Assembly: GCA_021371795.1 (NCBI GenBank)
Contig: JAJFVK010000002.1
Span: forward strand, 1-64,000
Length of the DNA stretch: 64,000 nt
From: Planctomycetaceae bacterium
GTDB taxonomy: Bacteria > Planctomycetota > Phycisphaerae > Sedimentisphaerales > UBA12454
Direction of reading: 5' to 3'
Positions 51,188 to 56,987 of this stretch are shown here, in pieces. The position numbers were made by a program, and so were the translations under genes. The notes under the pieces were generated by a model that was given only the letters and a program-made list of their open reading frames with translations, did no database searches and was not told where the DNA came from. The first letter of the stretch is position 1. Each line of letters begins with the position of its first letter.

Positions 51188-52744
51188 TTACTTAAGGTTT
51201 CTTTGCCAATAAATTATATCATCACTATCGTCCTTGCTGTCTTTACCGACAGCATACAAAGTGGCTTGCTTCCCGTCATTGCTATAAATTATTTTGCCAT
51301 CGGAATCCGGGTTGTTCGGCAGTTGAGTTGTAAAACCGGCCTGACTAAGTTTTGAAATATCTTCCGGATAACAGCCTTTGATTAATTTGTATTCCTCAAG
51401 GTCAAGCATGAAATAACCTGCCGAAAGTGTTGTATTTGCATTTTGAAAAACTTTGTAAACTGCAGCAGTTACTTTATCAGTGCTATTATTATTAAAAATT
51501 TTTTCCCTGTGTATTATAAATGAATTAAAAATCGAAAATTCACTTTTGTTTTCTGTGCGTGTTCTGGTTTGCTCAAACACAGTTTGATAATGCTTTTGGG
51601 CGTATTTTTCGAGACCTGAAATTGAACCAATCTCTCTAAAGTCCGGATTAAGTGGTGTTACCATTGGCATATTAGAGCCAAATGCCTCAACATAACTCGC
51701 ACATGTCATAAATATTTCACCAGTAGGGTTTGGTGGCGGCAGTTCGGCAGGAAAGAATTCTTTAAGCAGTTGTCTGGCTTTTTGCAACTCCTGGCTTGTA
51801 TAATTATCATGCTTTGCAAGCAGCCTGATGTTAAGTTTGATAGTGAAATATCCTAAAAGCTGCTCCTTGAAAGTTTTTCCATGAATAAAATGTCTGGAAG
51901 TCTTCAGTTGGGTTTGAAGTAAATTGAGCCAGTTCACGTCAAATACTCCTGCAATCTGGCCTGCTGTTATATTTCTACAAAAATTTATAAGCGGATAAAC
52001 TATTTCACCTGGAGTAATTTTCGGGTCGTTCTGGTCTGTAATTTCAAGAAAAGATATGTTTTTATAGGTCGCATTGCAATAGCTAATGGATGATGCTTTT
52101 TTAAAGTTCTCCCATGCAGAGGTGTTTTCGTAAAACCATTTTTGTAAATTTTCTCTCTGGGTATCATTAAAATCGAATTGGTTGTATTTGAAATTTTCTA
52201 TTATGCTGTTTTGAAAATTATCTTCCAGCTTTGTACAGGTTACAGCGGCTTCAATATAATAAGGCTAAGCATTTTCAGATTGATTAGGCTCAGCACCCAT
52301 AGAATTAAACGCGGCGGTGTAGTCTTTTCTGAAAAAATCATAATCTATGCAACAGTAAGAAGTATAAAATAGGGGCAAACTAAATACCATTAAATAGGCA
52401 GTGAATGGAAATACAATCTTTGTGCCTCTTGCACTTCTTATTTCTAAATAACAGACAAATGAAAGTATTAAAGGGGAAACAATTCCGACTACGATGATGA
52501 GAAAAATGTTTATGTTTTTGCTAATTACTGCAATTAATAATGGTAATATACAGCCTATATATCCTATCAGGGCAGCAATGCCGGCAATGATATGCAACTT
52601 TACTGCATGGTGTCGAAGTTCGCGAATTTGGTCTTTATCGTTAATATTTTCAGGTTTATTGTAAGTGTCTTTTAATAAAATAAATGCCTTTAATTTAGTA
52701 ATCCAAAATATCACTAAACATATTATTAGCAAAATGCCTAACAT
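51188..52744 (-). pseudogene. Membrane-anchored hypothetical protein with an in-frame amber stop
   Basis: Read as one frame this is 518 codons from ATG 52744 (AGAGGAG 6 bases upstream, 19 bases after the regulator gene). Residues 1-159 have helices LGILLIICLVIFWI, AGIAALIGYIGCILPLLIAV and FPFTAYLMVFSLPLFYT, ending MGAEPNQSENA before TAG at 52265-52267. The frame then stays open for 109 codons without a start codon (PYYIEAAVTCTKLEDN onward) and joins a 249-residue part beginning with GTG 51937. The join ENA-stop-PYYIEAA resembles NALPYYIEA-type motifs of Planctomycetota proteins, so a Leu or Trp codon has probably become TAG. Function unknown. The C-terminal half holds YPEDISKLSQAG and PDSDGKIIYSNDGKQA, which recall prepilin-type endings. 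Confidence 0.82.
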
Positions 52745-52763: not shown

Positions 52764-54152
52764 TTATCTGATTCCCATTCTTTCGGCTTCGTCTTCGAGG
52801 CCGTATTTTTTCATCTTCTTATAAAGCGTTGTTCTGTTAATCTTCAGCGCAAGAGCAGTTAATTGTCTGTTCCAGTTATTTGCCTCAAGCGCGGCTCGCA
52901 AAATTTTTCGCTCCGGCTCGGCAATCGCCGACTTCAAACTCGTACTGTCAAAATCATCCGCAGAGTTCAACGGTGCATAAGCCGTAACATTGAAAGGTAA
53001 ATCATCGAACGTGATATAATCCGTCTTACTCAAAAGCACCGCACGCTCTATCACATTCTCCAGTTCGCGAACGTTGCCAGGCCAGTCATATCTCTGCAAT
53101 ACACTCATCGCTTCATTATCAATGCCTAACTTCATACGGTTGTGCGCAATGCAGAAATTCTTCATAAACTGCTGCGCGAGCAGCGGAATATCGGCGGGAC
53201 GTTCGTTAAGCGACGGCAGATTAATCGTTATCACATTCAAGCGATAATACAAATCTTCCCTGAATCGACCTGCACGGACTTCATTCATCATATTCTGGTT
53301 CGAGGCGACAATCACTCTGGTATCCACGGTAGTCGTTTTGTTGCTGCCGACAGGTTCAAATTGTCTGTCCTGAATCACGCGCAGAAATTTTACCTGCAGC
53401 GCAGCGGATGCTGTTGAAATTTCATCGAGGAAAATAGTCCCGCCGTCGGCGGCGAGGAATTTGCCCTGCTTGTCGCTGATTGCGCCGGTGAATGAGCCTT
53501 TGACGTGGCCGAATAATTCACTTTCGAGCAGCGTTTCCGGCAGCGCACCGCAGTTCACTTCGACAAACGGCTTGTCTCTTCTGTCTGAACGGTAATGAAT
53601 TGCTCTTGCGAGCATTGTTTTACCTGTTCCGCTTGAGCCGGTCATAAGAATCGTTGACCTGCTGTCGGCGACCGCTTCAATAAGGTCGAAGATTTTCGCC
53701 ATTTTGTAGTCCTGGCTGACAATATTTTCCAGACTATATTTATGTACAAGCTGGCTCTTTAGATTCGCGTTTTCACTAATAAGTGACTGCTGCTTGAGCG
53801 ATCTTTCGATTGTCAGCCGCAGTTCGTCATCGACAACCGGTTTTGTCAGATAATCGTAAGCTCCCTGCTTGATTGCCTCTACTGCGCTTTCAATTGTGCC
53901 GTAACCTGTAATAATGATGACAACTGTTTGCGGATAGTTTTGTCTTATCAGATTGAGCAGCTCGAAGCCGTTGCCGTCCGGCAGGTTCACGTCAGTGATG
54001 ACCAGATGGAAACGCTGTCTTTGCAGTCGGCTCAATGCCTGTCTGTAAGAGTCTGCGCCGACAACGCCGTAGCCTTCGAGTTTCAAAAACTCGCAAAGCG
54101 AATCAAGAATGATTTTGTCATCATCTACAACTAAAATGTTTACAGGAACCAT
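52764..54152 (-). CDS. NtrC-family sigma-54-dependent response regulator
   Basis: 462 residues from ATG 54152 (GGAAGG upstream). Receiver at 1-120 ([12 protein letters not shown], Asp in [13 protein letters not shown], Lys in YLTKPV), AAA+ activator domain at about 140-370 with Walker A GSSGTGKT, the sigma-54 contact loop GSFTGA, Walker [10 protein letters not shown], and the arginine finger region [11 protein letters not shown] Fis-type helix-turn-helix ends the protein ([26 protein letters not shown]). It activates sigma-54 RNA polymerase from an upstream site. The kinase gene lies just upstream on the same strand. A sigma-54 promoter candidate lies beyond it, at 55676. Confidence 0.95.
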
Positions 54153-54328: not shown

Positions 54329-55411
54329 CTATTTATTAACTGGTAGATACACTGTAAAGATACTTCCTGAATCCGAAGCGTTTTGGGCGGTGATTTTCCC
54401 GCCGTGCTTTTCGATAATGTCTCTGCAAATCGCAAGGCCCAAGCCCGTTCCCTTGCGGCCTGTTTTTGTGGAAAAGAACGGCTCGAAAATCGCTTCGCAT
54501 ACCGCAGGGTCGATTCCCTTGCCTGTGTCGCGGAATTTTATCGCCGCGATGTTATCGTCTGAAACATCGCATGTAATAATAATTTTTCCGCCGTCGTGCA
54601 TCGCTTCAATCGCGTTCTTAATCAGATTGCAGAATACCTGGAACAAATTGCCGCATTTTGCCTTTGGAAGCGGAGTTGTGTATTGTCGTTGAATTTCGAC
54701 AGATGCGGTGTTTGCCATAGGCTCATTGTACTTAATTGCCTCTTCGATGATTTTATCTATAGTTGTGTCTTCGAGAGATGAGTGTCTGTTTCTGGAGAAT
54801 TCCAGAAGTTCGGTGATAATGCCAATCATTCTTTTCAGGCCGTCGCCGGCATTGTCGAGATATTCGACTGGTTTGGTAAGGCCGTGTTCATTAACGATTC
54901 GCTTGGCAAGGTTGATATACCTTAATACGCCATCCATCGGGTTGTTCAATTCGTGTGCGACTTTGCTGGCGAGTTTGCCAAGCGCGGCAAGGCGTTCGGT
55001 TTGGGCGTACTGCTTTTGAAGCGTGGCTTTTTCGGTAACGTTTTCAAGCAGGATAATGCCGCCTGTAATAACGCCGTCATCCTTCATCGCGGAGCAGATT
55101 ATTTGCAAAAGAGCGGATTTGTCTTCGTAAAGATAGCTTACATTGTCGAATCGGCGGGATTTGCCTGTGTTTAAGACTCCGGTGAGTATTGCATGCCAAT
55201 TGCCCCAGATGTTTTCATTTGTGCCGGCGGCCAGAGTGGCGTCAGCTTTCATCTGGATATTAATGCAGTCATACGCGCATCGGTTTGCGTTTTGGATTTT
55301 TAAGGTTTTGTCAAAAACGACAACGCCAATCGGCAGCGATTGCAAAACCAAAGAATCGCCGTTAATCTTAACATCTTTAACAAAAATATCTTGTGCTACA
55401 TCTTCGAGCAT
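54329..55411 (-). CDS. PAS-domain sensor histidine kinase, NtrB-like
   Basis: Soluble kinase of 360 residues. A PAS domain at about 15-125 (LVLQSLPIGVVVFDKTLKIQNANRCA), a HisKA helix with the phospho-His in LGKLASKVAHELNNPMDGVLRYI, and the HATPase N box [42 protein letters not shown]. There are no membrane helices, as in NtrB. The downstream NtrC-type gene is its natural partner. The ligand of the PAS part is unknown. Confidence 0.95.
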   Translation of the reverse strand: MLEDVAQDIFVKDVKINGDSLVLQSLPIGVVVFDKTLKIQNANRCAYDCINIQMKADATLAAGTNENIWGNWHAILTGVLNTGKSRRFDNVSYLYEDKSALLQIICSAMKDDGVITGGIILLENVTEKATLQKQYAQTERLAALGKLASKVAHELNNPMDGVLRYINLAKRIVNEHGLTKPVEYLDNAGDGLKRMIGIITELLEFSRNRHSSLEDTTIDKIIEEAIKYNEPMANTASVEIQRQYTTPLPKAKCGNLFQVFCNLIKNAIEAMHDGGKIIITCDVSDDNIAAIKFRDTGKGIDPAVCEAIFEPFFSTKTGRKGTGLGLAICRDIIEKHGGKITAQNASDSGSIFTVYLPVNK

Positions 55412-55550
55412 AGTTGATGTGTATTATAGAACCATCTGGCGAGATTTGTCAACCAGTATGTTGCAAAAAAACAACAAAACTTAAGTTTTTAAGGTATAAA
55501 GTATAAAGTTGATAATTTTTTAACGCATTAAACAACGGTTTTGTTGACCT

Positions 55551-55648
55551 TTGTAAACAGGGTTTCCCAATTTTACAACTTCCCTGGTTTAATCAGGATA
55601 TTAGTGAGGTTGTAACTTTATATTTTACAATAGGTTATGTTGTTGTAA
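55551..55648 (+). promoter_or_regulatory. Row of TTGTAA/TTACAA words, possible activator sites
   Basis: TTGTAA at 55551, TTACAA at 55573, TTGTAA at 55610, TTACAA at 55625 and TTGTAA at 55643: two facing pairs about 55 bases apart plus a single half site. They lie 30-125 bases upstream of the sigma-54 promoter, where NtrC-type enhancer sites sit. Low complexity by chance cannot be ruled out. Confidence 0.4.
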
Positions 55649-55675
55649 TGTGGATGGACTCTAAATATGAAAAAG

Positions 55676-55691
55676 TGGTACATTATTTGCG
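55676..55691 (+). promoter_or_regulatory. Sigma-54 promoter upstream of the PilZ gene
   Basis: TGGTACATTATTTGCG matches the consensus TGGCAC-N5-TTGC: the GG (55677-55678) and GC (55689-55690) are 10 bases apart, the exact -24/-12 spacing. The transcript would begin near 55702, about 67 bases before the PilZ ATG. Confidence 0.75.
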
Positions 55692-55768
55692 AGTCCGATA
55701 ACGGTAACGTTAGGGATAGTGTGTTTATCTTTTTTTCATAGCATGGAGGTAAAGGAAAGGAAAAACTA

Positions 55769-56116
55769 ATGGGAGGAGTATTGGAAGAAAGACGGAAATA
55801 TAGGCGTTTGGATATACGAACGGATGTTCTGTGTAAAAAAATCGATTCCGGGTGCGGCCACAGTTTTAAGGCGAATAGTATAAACATCAGCACAGAGGGA
55901 CTGCTCGCGGAAATAGCGAATCATCATTTAATGGAAATAAATGATGGTGAACTTTTCGGTTTGGAAATGGATGTTCCCGTCGAAGACAATACGGATTTGT
56001 TAGGCGGAAAGTTGTGGGCATACGGCAAAGTCGTTCGCATTGTTGAACAGCAACCTCAAACCAGCAAGAAACGAATCGCTTTTCAGTTTTGTACCCGCCC
56101 AATGTTTGAAATATAG
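55769..56116 (+). CDS. PilZ-domain protein
   Basis: A 115-residue single-domain protein of the c-di-GMP receptor type. The first binding motif is ERRKYRRLD (RxxxR), the second NISTEGLL in place of DxSxxG, so ligand binding is likely but the Asp/Asn change is worth noting. GGAGGTAAAGGAAAGG stands before the ATG. The gene reads divergently from the kinase/regulator operon and has a sigma-54 promoter. It may pass the c-di-GMP signal to surface or motility functions. Confidence 0.85.
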   Translation: MGGVLEERRKYRRLDIRTDVLCKKIDSGCGHSFKANSINISTEGLLAEIANHHLMEINDGELFGLEMDVPVEDNTDLLGGKLWAYGKVVRIVEQQPQTSKKRIAFQFCTRPMFEI

Positions 56117-56186: not shown

Positions 56187-56987
56187 ATGAAAATACTGAA
56201 ATACATACCGATTCTGATATTCATGTTGATTTTGGCCGGCTGCAACGAGCAAAAGAAAGTGGATCACTGGCAAAATGTCAGCATAAACGATTTGATGCCG
56301 AAAGGCGGACCGGCACGTACTAAAGACACTATCATCGGTTTATCTGTTTTTGTCTTTGAGGCAGACAGCGGCAGGTATTTAGCTGTTCAGTCTGCTATGG
56401 CGGGCACAAGTGAATTGCAGGTTGATGCTTCCGGCAATATAAATCTGGCGGAAAATGGAATGATATGCGGAAACGGGGACCTGCAGAACTGGCCTGGAAT
56501 AGCCAAAAGTCTGGCAGACGCCAATGCTGTGATTGTCAAGCGTGTAACTTTGTTTATGACTGAAAACGTTAGTGAGCAGATTGAACTGGCCGGCTTTCCG
56601 CAAGGCGCATCTGTATGTTATCAGACAGATAACAAAACAACGGCGGCGGTCGGATTGCCGGAAGGAAGCGTTTTACTCGATATAAACGCTAAATCCCTCA
56701 TAGGCCTTAAACAGGTCTGTCAGCTTGAAATCAAACCGATTTATAAGACCATAAGGAAAAAAGTCGAGGAAAAGCGAATACCCGCCTGGGAATACTTGTT
56801 TGATTCTATCGGCTGCAAGTCGCCTGTTCGGCCGGGTCAATTCATTTTTCTGTCACCGCAAATTGACGACATCAAGACATCTGAACAGAAAGCTATTGCG
56901 AACGTTGGAAGGTTGATTTTCACAGATAAACAGAAAGAAAACAGAGTAAAATTCTGTTTAATCGTTTGTGGTCTTATAAAGGATTGA
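56187..56987 (+). CDS. Lipoprotein of unknown function
   Basis: A 266-residue exported lipoprotein: the signal peptide ends with lipobox LAGC (MKILKYIPILIFMLILAGCNE). The body has GLSVFVFEADSGRYLAVQSAM, GFPQGASVCYQTDN, and a C-terminal IANVGRLIF part; no known domain is recognised. It lies 70 bases after the PilZ gene in the same direction, so the two may be one unit. A terminator follows at 57152. Confidence 0.82.
   Translation: MKILKYIPILIFMLILAGCNEQKKVDHWQNVSINDLMPKGGPARTKDTIIGLSVFVFEADSGRYLAVQSAMAGTSELQVDASGNINLAENGMICGNGDLQNWPGIAKSLADANAVIVKRVTLFMTENVSEQIELAGFPQGASVCYQTDNKTTAAVGLPEGSVLLDINAKSLIGLKQVCQLEIKPIYKTIRKKVEEKRIPAWEYLFDSIGCKSPVRPGQFIFLSPQIDDIKTSEQKAIANVGRLIFTDKQKENRVKFCLIVCGLIKD

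Follow-up and report, generated by a model that had tools for sequence, protein, structure and literature searches.

In gammaproteobacteria, the BarA/UvrY (GacS/GacA) two-component system turns on small RNAs with GGA-bearing loops, CsrB and RsmZ, in cells that contain CsrA. This Gac/Rsm pathway has been linked to surface life; its response regulator is of the LuxR type and works with sigma-70. The LuxO-Qrr and GlrR-GlmY systems instead use an NtrC-type response regulator to drive a sigma-54 promoter for a small RNA, and the Qrr and GlmY RNAs are reported to act by base-pairing or as a decoy. GlmY is mentioned in PMC3162934 and PMC7073468. In the PrsK-PrsR system of PEP-CTERM genes, an NtrC-type regulator goes together with a repeated box before sigma-54 promoters and with long intergenic regions (PMC1569441). 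Finally, NtrB/NtrC pairs a soluble PAS kinase with a sigma-54 response regulator, the kinase lying upstream of the regulator.

The 64-kb stretch of planctomycete DNA analysed here (the window) carries a kinase-regulator operon and a divergent PilZ gene that invite comparison with each of these systems. We put at roughly 0.78 the probability that this locus is home to a sigma-54 regulon extending across an order of the Phycisphaerae (Sedimentisphaerales and kin), with the PilZ operon and a probable CsrA-sponge RNA as joint targets. PrsK-PrsR is the nearest system in logic, and the likeness extends to two targets read in a related family, f15, which carry PEP-CTERM tails. However, the box is an 18-mer here, TGTTG-N8-CAACA, and a 17-mer ending in TTTACA there (PMC1569441); the planctomycete kinase is soluble, unlike PrsK, and the regulator scores 400.6 bits against the PrsR model (TIGR02915), under its cut-off of 502.6. 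With NtrB/NtrC the locus shares the type of kinase and the gene order, but the NtrC score (TIGR01818, 376.7 bits) falls under the cut-off of 558.6 and no nitrogen genes occur among the targets found. The regulator was also below the curated cut-offs for AtoC (451.5 bits, cut-off 714), ZraR (397.3 bits, cut-off 760), LuxO and GlrR, and its membership of the NtrC, AtoC, ZraR and PrsR families was rejected on these grounds. Of the term 'NtrBC-type', applied to the operon in the first-pass annotation, the NtrC-type architecture stands, while NtrBC proper does not.

For the RNA, the nearest counterparts are Gac-RsmZ by function and LuxO-Qrr or GlrR-GlmY by sigma-54 control. It differs from CsrB and RsmZ in having no Rfam match, in a CsrA target that is proposed by analogy, in a predicted control shared with a PilZ operon and in a regulator that is a sigma-54 activator. 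Unlike Qrr and GlmY, it has loops that suggest a CsrA sponge, and it belongs to another phylum.

The regulator gene (52764..54152, minus strand) encodes an NtrC-type protein of 462 amino acids, counted from ATG, in which Pfam recognizes a receiver, a sigma-54 activation domain with the GSFTGA loop and a Fis-type helix-turn-helix. The kinase gene (54329..55411, minus strand) specifies a histidine kinase with HisKA and HATPase_c domains (Pfam) and a PAS-like N-terminus; no membrane segment is evident by inspection. These domains, and that of the PilZ protein, are as first described. No protein of the set is better conserved than the regulator, whose orthologues are 64-90% identical across the order; alignment of these orthologues reveals conservation of D54 and of the G-FTGA columns. 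One relative, UR.bin163, has a regulator gene with an in-frame TAA at codon 347, due to either an assembly error or a recent loss. A kinase orthologue adjoins the regulator in nearly all relatives. Transcription of the operon would start from a sigma-70-like promoter read from the sequence (55423..55452, minus strand), with TTGACA (55452-55447) separated by 18 bp from TATAAT (55428-55423); the -10 and most of the -35 are kept in 11 gaps of the family. About 11 nt separate TATAAT from the start codon of the kinase (55395-55452), leaving a leader of only a few bases, so that the kinase mRNA would be nearly leaderless.

On the plus strand, the PilZ gene (55769..56116) encodes a protein of 115 amino acids that matches Pfam PilZ with E=7e-6 and contains the RxxxR and [ND]x[SC]xxG motifs for c-di-GMP. 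Both motif arginines are invariant in an alignment of 24 orthologues. Because these motifs are kept and the genome encodes three GGDEF proteins, a role of the PilZ protein as a c-di-GMP receptor is plausible. The next gene (56187..56987, plus strand; 266 amino acids) carries a signal sequence that bears out its initial description as a lipoprotein gene. It is the second gene of the PilZ operon and adjoins PilZ in all family members. The lipoprotein has no match in Pfam. Its AlphaFold model (pLDDT 83) retrieves the secretins PilQ, GspD and InvG as top Foldseek hits (E about 2e-4, probability 0.96) with TM scores of just 0.23-0.28, which gives a hint, and only that, of a resemblance to the secretin fold. 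In other genera a DUF362 gene is the third member of the PilZ-lipoprotein operon, as seen at seven loci; it is missing from the genus of the window.

The first-pass annotation had expected five genes to stay together, the kinase operon ending with an amber-broken membrane protein gene. The kinase, the regulator and the divergent PilZ operon are indeed linked in relatives, but the amber-broken gene is not part of this set. It is absent from relatives, which have purQ or other genes after the regulator, and therefore does not represent the operon end. The split is genuine in the sequence: the ORF (51188-52744, minus strand) is a single frame with TAG between segments of 159 and 359 codons. By comparison with relatives, it is a local lineage-specific insertion. 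Beside it, the segment 49678-50924 looks like a four-helix-bundle gene together with a REP-type transposase gene. A sigma-54 site at 52375 on the minus strand, which sits within this lineage-specific ORF, was taken as chance.

The sigma-54 promoter TGGTACATTATTTGCG is present, with its GG-N10-GC spacing, exactly where it had been placed (55676-55691, plus strand; predicted start near 55702). The spacing by itself is common, with 378 matches in the window against 348 expected, and was dropped as evidence. Scored in full, the site reaches 13.2 of 19.8 bits, a value attained by 0.5% of gap shuffles. Orthologous loci were drawn from the 98 nearest genomes, nearly all of them metagenome genomes, and yielded 27 kinase-PilZ gaps for scoring. 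A sigma-54 site is kept in 25 of these 27 homologous gaps (1.95 expected from dinucleotide shuffles), the other two having no recognizable promoter. It takes the forms TGGYAY-, TGGTCT- or TGGAAY-N5-TTGC, and in nearly every locus of the family and order it precedes PilZ by 41-93 bp. This conservation identifies the site as a real sigma-54 promoter. A single copy of rpoN is found in the genome, 4.4 kb past the end of the window. The genome contains 39 TGGYAY-N5-TTGC sites, compared with 9 for the reversed-pattern control; among the genes downstream of such sites, recognized by reading their sequences, are dnaK, groEL, clpC, flgB, flgD and a fliK-like gene. Sigma-54 control of chaperones has been reported in planctomycetes (PMC12316311).

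The TTGTAA/TTACAA words initially proposed as enhancer sites did not hold up. TTGTAA occurs three times on the forward strand of the gap and not at all in the gaps of ten family relatives, and its frequency in the window is not above chance (54 against 50 expected). Conservation instead picks out an 18-bp palindrome, TGTTG-N8-(C/A)AACA, of which there are two copies per gap. In the 27 gaps, 28 exact copies are found against 0.05 expected; if up to one mismatch is tolerated, which some copies require, the count is 55 against 1.5. Predicted enhancer box A (TGTTGCAAAAAAACAACA, 55459-55476, without strand assignment) precedes the PilZ promoter by 217 bp. It is conserved out to families f5, f6 and f7 and is one of just two perfect two-way palindromes in the genome. 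Since it also adjoins the kinase -35 on the upstream side, the kinase-regulator operon is probably autoregulated through it. Predicted box B (TGTTGACCTTTGTAAACA, 55542-55559, plus strand) lies 134 bp upstream of the sigma-54 promoter, a distance that nearly every member of the family keeps at 133-134 bp. The overlap of this box with the first TTGTAA is coincidental. Family alignment reveals a block between it and the promoter, TTTACAACTTnCCnnGTTTAAA (55571-55592, plus strand), which is conserved in the family only and includes one of the TTACAA words. A solitary TGTTG box, without a partner box, lies elsewhere in the genome at G000:C1:38576. Judged by its conservation, TGTTG-N8-MAACA is the true enhancer element of the locus.

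The locus had been described as a self-contained unit, a view that the distribution of the box and promoter contradicts. The regulon was scanned by pattern searches, with a box, a spacer of 95-125 nt and the promoter as the query (box-N95-125-promoter). Of 96 relatives, 48 had matches, 74 in all, where the reversed control gave 3. Three targets recur: the PilZ operon, a structured RNA encoded far from it and, in other genomes, a coiled-coil protein of about 85 amino acids. In the genome of the window, 30 of the 39 sigma-54 sites were examined and only two have the box pair, at -217/-134 for PilZ and at -228/-136 for the RNA. The RNA site (G000:C16:33249) is outside the window, and its box-pair promoter precedes the RNA. 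The coiled-coil family, which ends in FDLEATRREN-YLRKML, has a box and sigma-54 promoter at six loci, with further targets (L372-L374, L387) in other families of the class; a homologue in the genome of the window has the promoter and no recognizable box. Genomes G105 and G114 of family f15 contain 35 and 12 box plus sigma-54 elements, respectively. Because the two elements read there sit upstream of PEP-CTERM proteins, it is suggested that boxes of this type govern a regulon of matrix proteins in f15.

The small RNA (G000:C16:33249-33440, equal to L176:1501-1687) is about 160 nt long and consists of three hairpins and an intrinsic terminator. A covariance model finds it once per genome in 12 of 13 family genomes, with E values from 1e-11 to 1e-47, and in further families it was found via the box-promoter pattern. 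Conversely, five weak hits from the RNA model alone proved to carry the promoter and the pair of boxes with their offsets unchanged. The stems show compensatory changes, and GGAGGA in the terminator loop is invariant in 18 of 18 sequences. GGA falls in hairpin loops 47 times, against 6.4 expected from folded shuffles, with two to four per RNA. The fold energy of the copy in the genome of the window is only moderately unusual (z -1.95). Some RNAs of family f6 lose the GGAGGA loop (L206, L208). No match was obtained in Rfam, including CsrB, RsmY and RsmZ, up to E=1, and identity with a riboswitch or a known Rfam family was accordingly rejected; a coding gene was rejected since there is no shared ORF and the length changes are not multiples of three. 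Comparative analysis thus establishes the RNA and its structure as conserved elements, and the RNA is apparently undescribed. In the genome of the window it is followed by a gene for a lipoprotein of 235 amino acids and by a tRNA gene on the opposite strand.

Several other readings of these elements have to be weighed. The promoter and boxes could be chance or the inherited background of an AT-rich gap. The TTGTAA words are exactly such background, but the promoter and the TGTTG boxes far exceed the shuffle and reversed-pattern controls in several families, and conservation has already refuted this hardly credible reading. A separate question is which protein binds the boxes. It could be another sigma-54 activator, such as one that resembles PrsR and controls PEP-CTERM (exosortase) genes, the adjoining regulator being incidental. 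The kinship of the window regulator with PrsR speaks for this, as does the occurrence of the same box and sigma-54 element 12-35 times per genome in f15. Yet no PrsR above cut-off is found in 14 genomes (that of the window and 13 relatives), and the motif published for PrsR is not the same as this box (see above). Moreover, the box travels with the regulator. Schlesneria-like planctomycetes encode homologues that are 55-58% identical to it and lack a neighbouring PilZ gene; the same palindrome stands before these regulator genes themselves, and the 14-residue recognition helix of their products is identical to that of the window regulator. In contrast, the helices of the other sigma-54 activators in the genome of the window differ from this one, as judged from the HTH tails of six of the seven. 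Conversely, box and promoter stay with PilZ genes that are unlinked from the regulator, at five loci of family f4. An outside activator is therefore improbable. The accompaniment of PilZ-less regulator homologues and of regulator-unlinked PilZ genes by the box supports the view that the adjoining regulator and the box-promoter unit belong together. The link from regulator to promoter, which the first-pass annotation had offered as inference, now has independent backing from this co-occurrence across genomes and from the distinct helix.

The alternatives for the RNA concern what it is and what it acts on. In many genomes a ThiD2-ThiE gene begins 190-300 nt past the promoter, which would fit a leader or attenuator of this thiamine gene better than a free small RNA. 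However, the RNA ends in a strong intrinsic terminator and matches no riboswitch, and it is still conserved in genus g1 and in three further genomes (G034, G037, G069), where no ThiD2-ThiE gene is seen within about 450 nt. Since the RNA stands alone in genus g1 and in part of the f7 genomes, a thiamine-gene leader is very doubtful. More serious, if still unlikely, is the possibility that the regulon is as described while the RNA has a target other than CsrA, with its GGAGGA loops pairing to CU-rich mRNA or with the anti-Shine-Dalgarno end of 16S rRNA. Indeed, the GGAGG of the loop is also a perfect Shine-Dalgarno-like word, some f6 RNAs do without GGAGG loops, and one genome (G008, 89% complete) has the RNA and no CsrA match. 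Against this, CsrB and RsmZ are known to show this arrangement, with GGA in apical loops on stems that otherwise vary, the enrichment of GGA in loops is strong (see above) and a relaxed f6 copy (L207) retains an AAGGAU loop. CsrA is, besides, almost universal in the group: its gene is intact in the genome of the window and found in 88 of 96 relatives. By analogy with CsrB/RsmZ, a CsrA sponge is the simplest reading, and the small RNA most likely binds and sequesters CsrA. In the open-licence literature we found no CsrA-antagonist RNA from planctomycetes; csrA itself has been reported under sigma-54 promoters in these bacteria (PMC12316311).

These considerations lead us to the following model. 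The cytosolic PAS-type histidine kinase would phosphorylate its partner, the NtrC-type regulator, which would bind a pair of TGTTG-N8-(C/A)AACA palindromes at each target, one near -134 and the other near -217 to -228 relative to the promoter, and activate sigma-54 polymerase at TGGYAY-N5-TTGC. One target would be the divergent operon encoding the presumptive c-di-GMP receptor and the lipoprotein, plus the DUF362 protein in other genera. The other would be the unlinked gene for the structured small RNA, whose GGAGGA loops would sequester CsrA. The output may be a move away from CsrA-repressed physiology along with raised c-di-GMP responsiveness, in other words a surface or matrix programme.

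In its broadest form, the proposal is that one sigma-54 two-component system turns on both an operon for a c-di-GMP receptor and a CsrA-sponge RNA family not described before, making it an independently evolved sigma-54 counterpart of the Gac/Rsm cascade. We regard this wider claim as evenly balanced. In TGTTG-N8-CAACA, the analysis provides a defined candidate operator for this regulator family. If the wider claim is true, the phylum would have a circuit ready at hand to regulate surface life, and the likeness of this circuit to Gac/Rsm would offer a testable case of convergent wiring.
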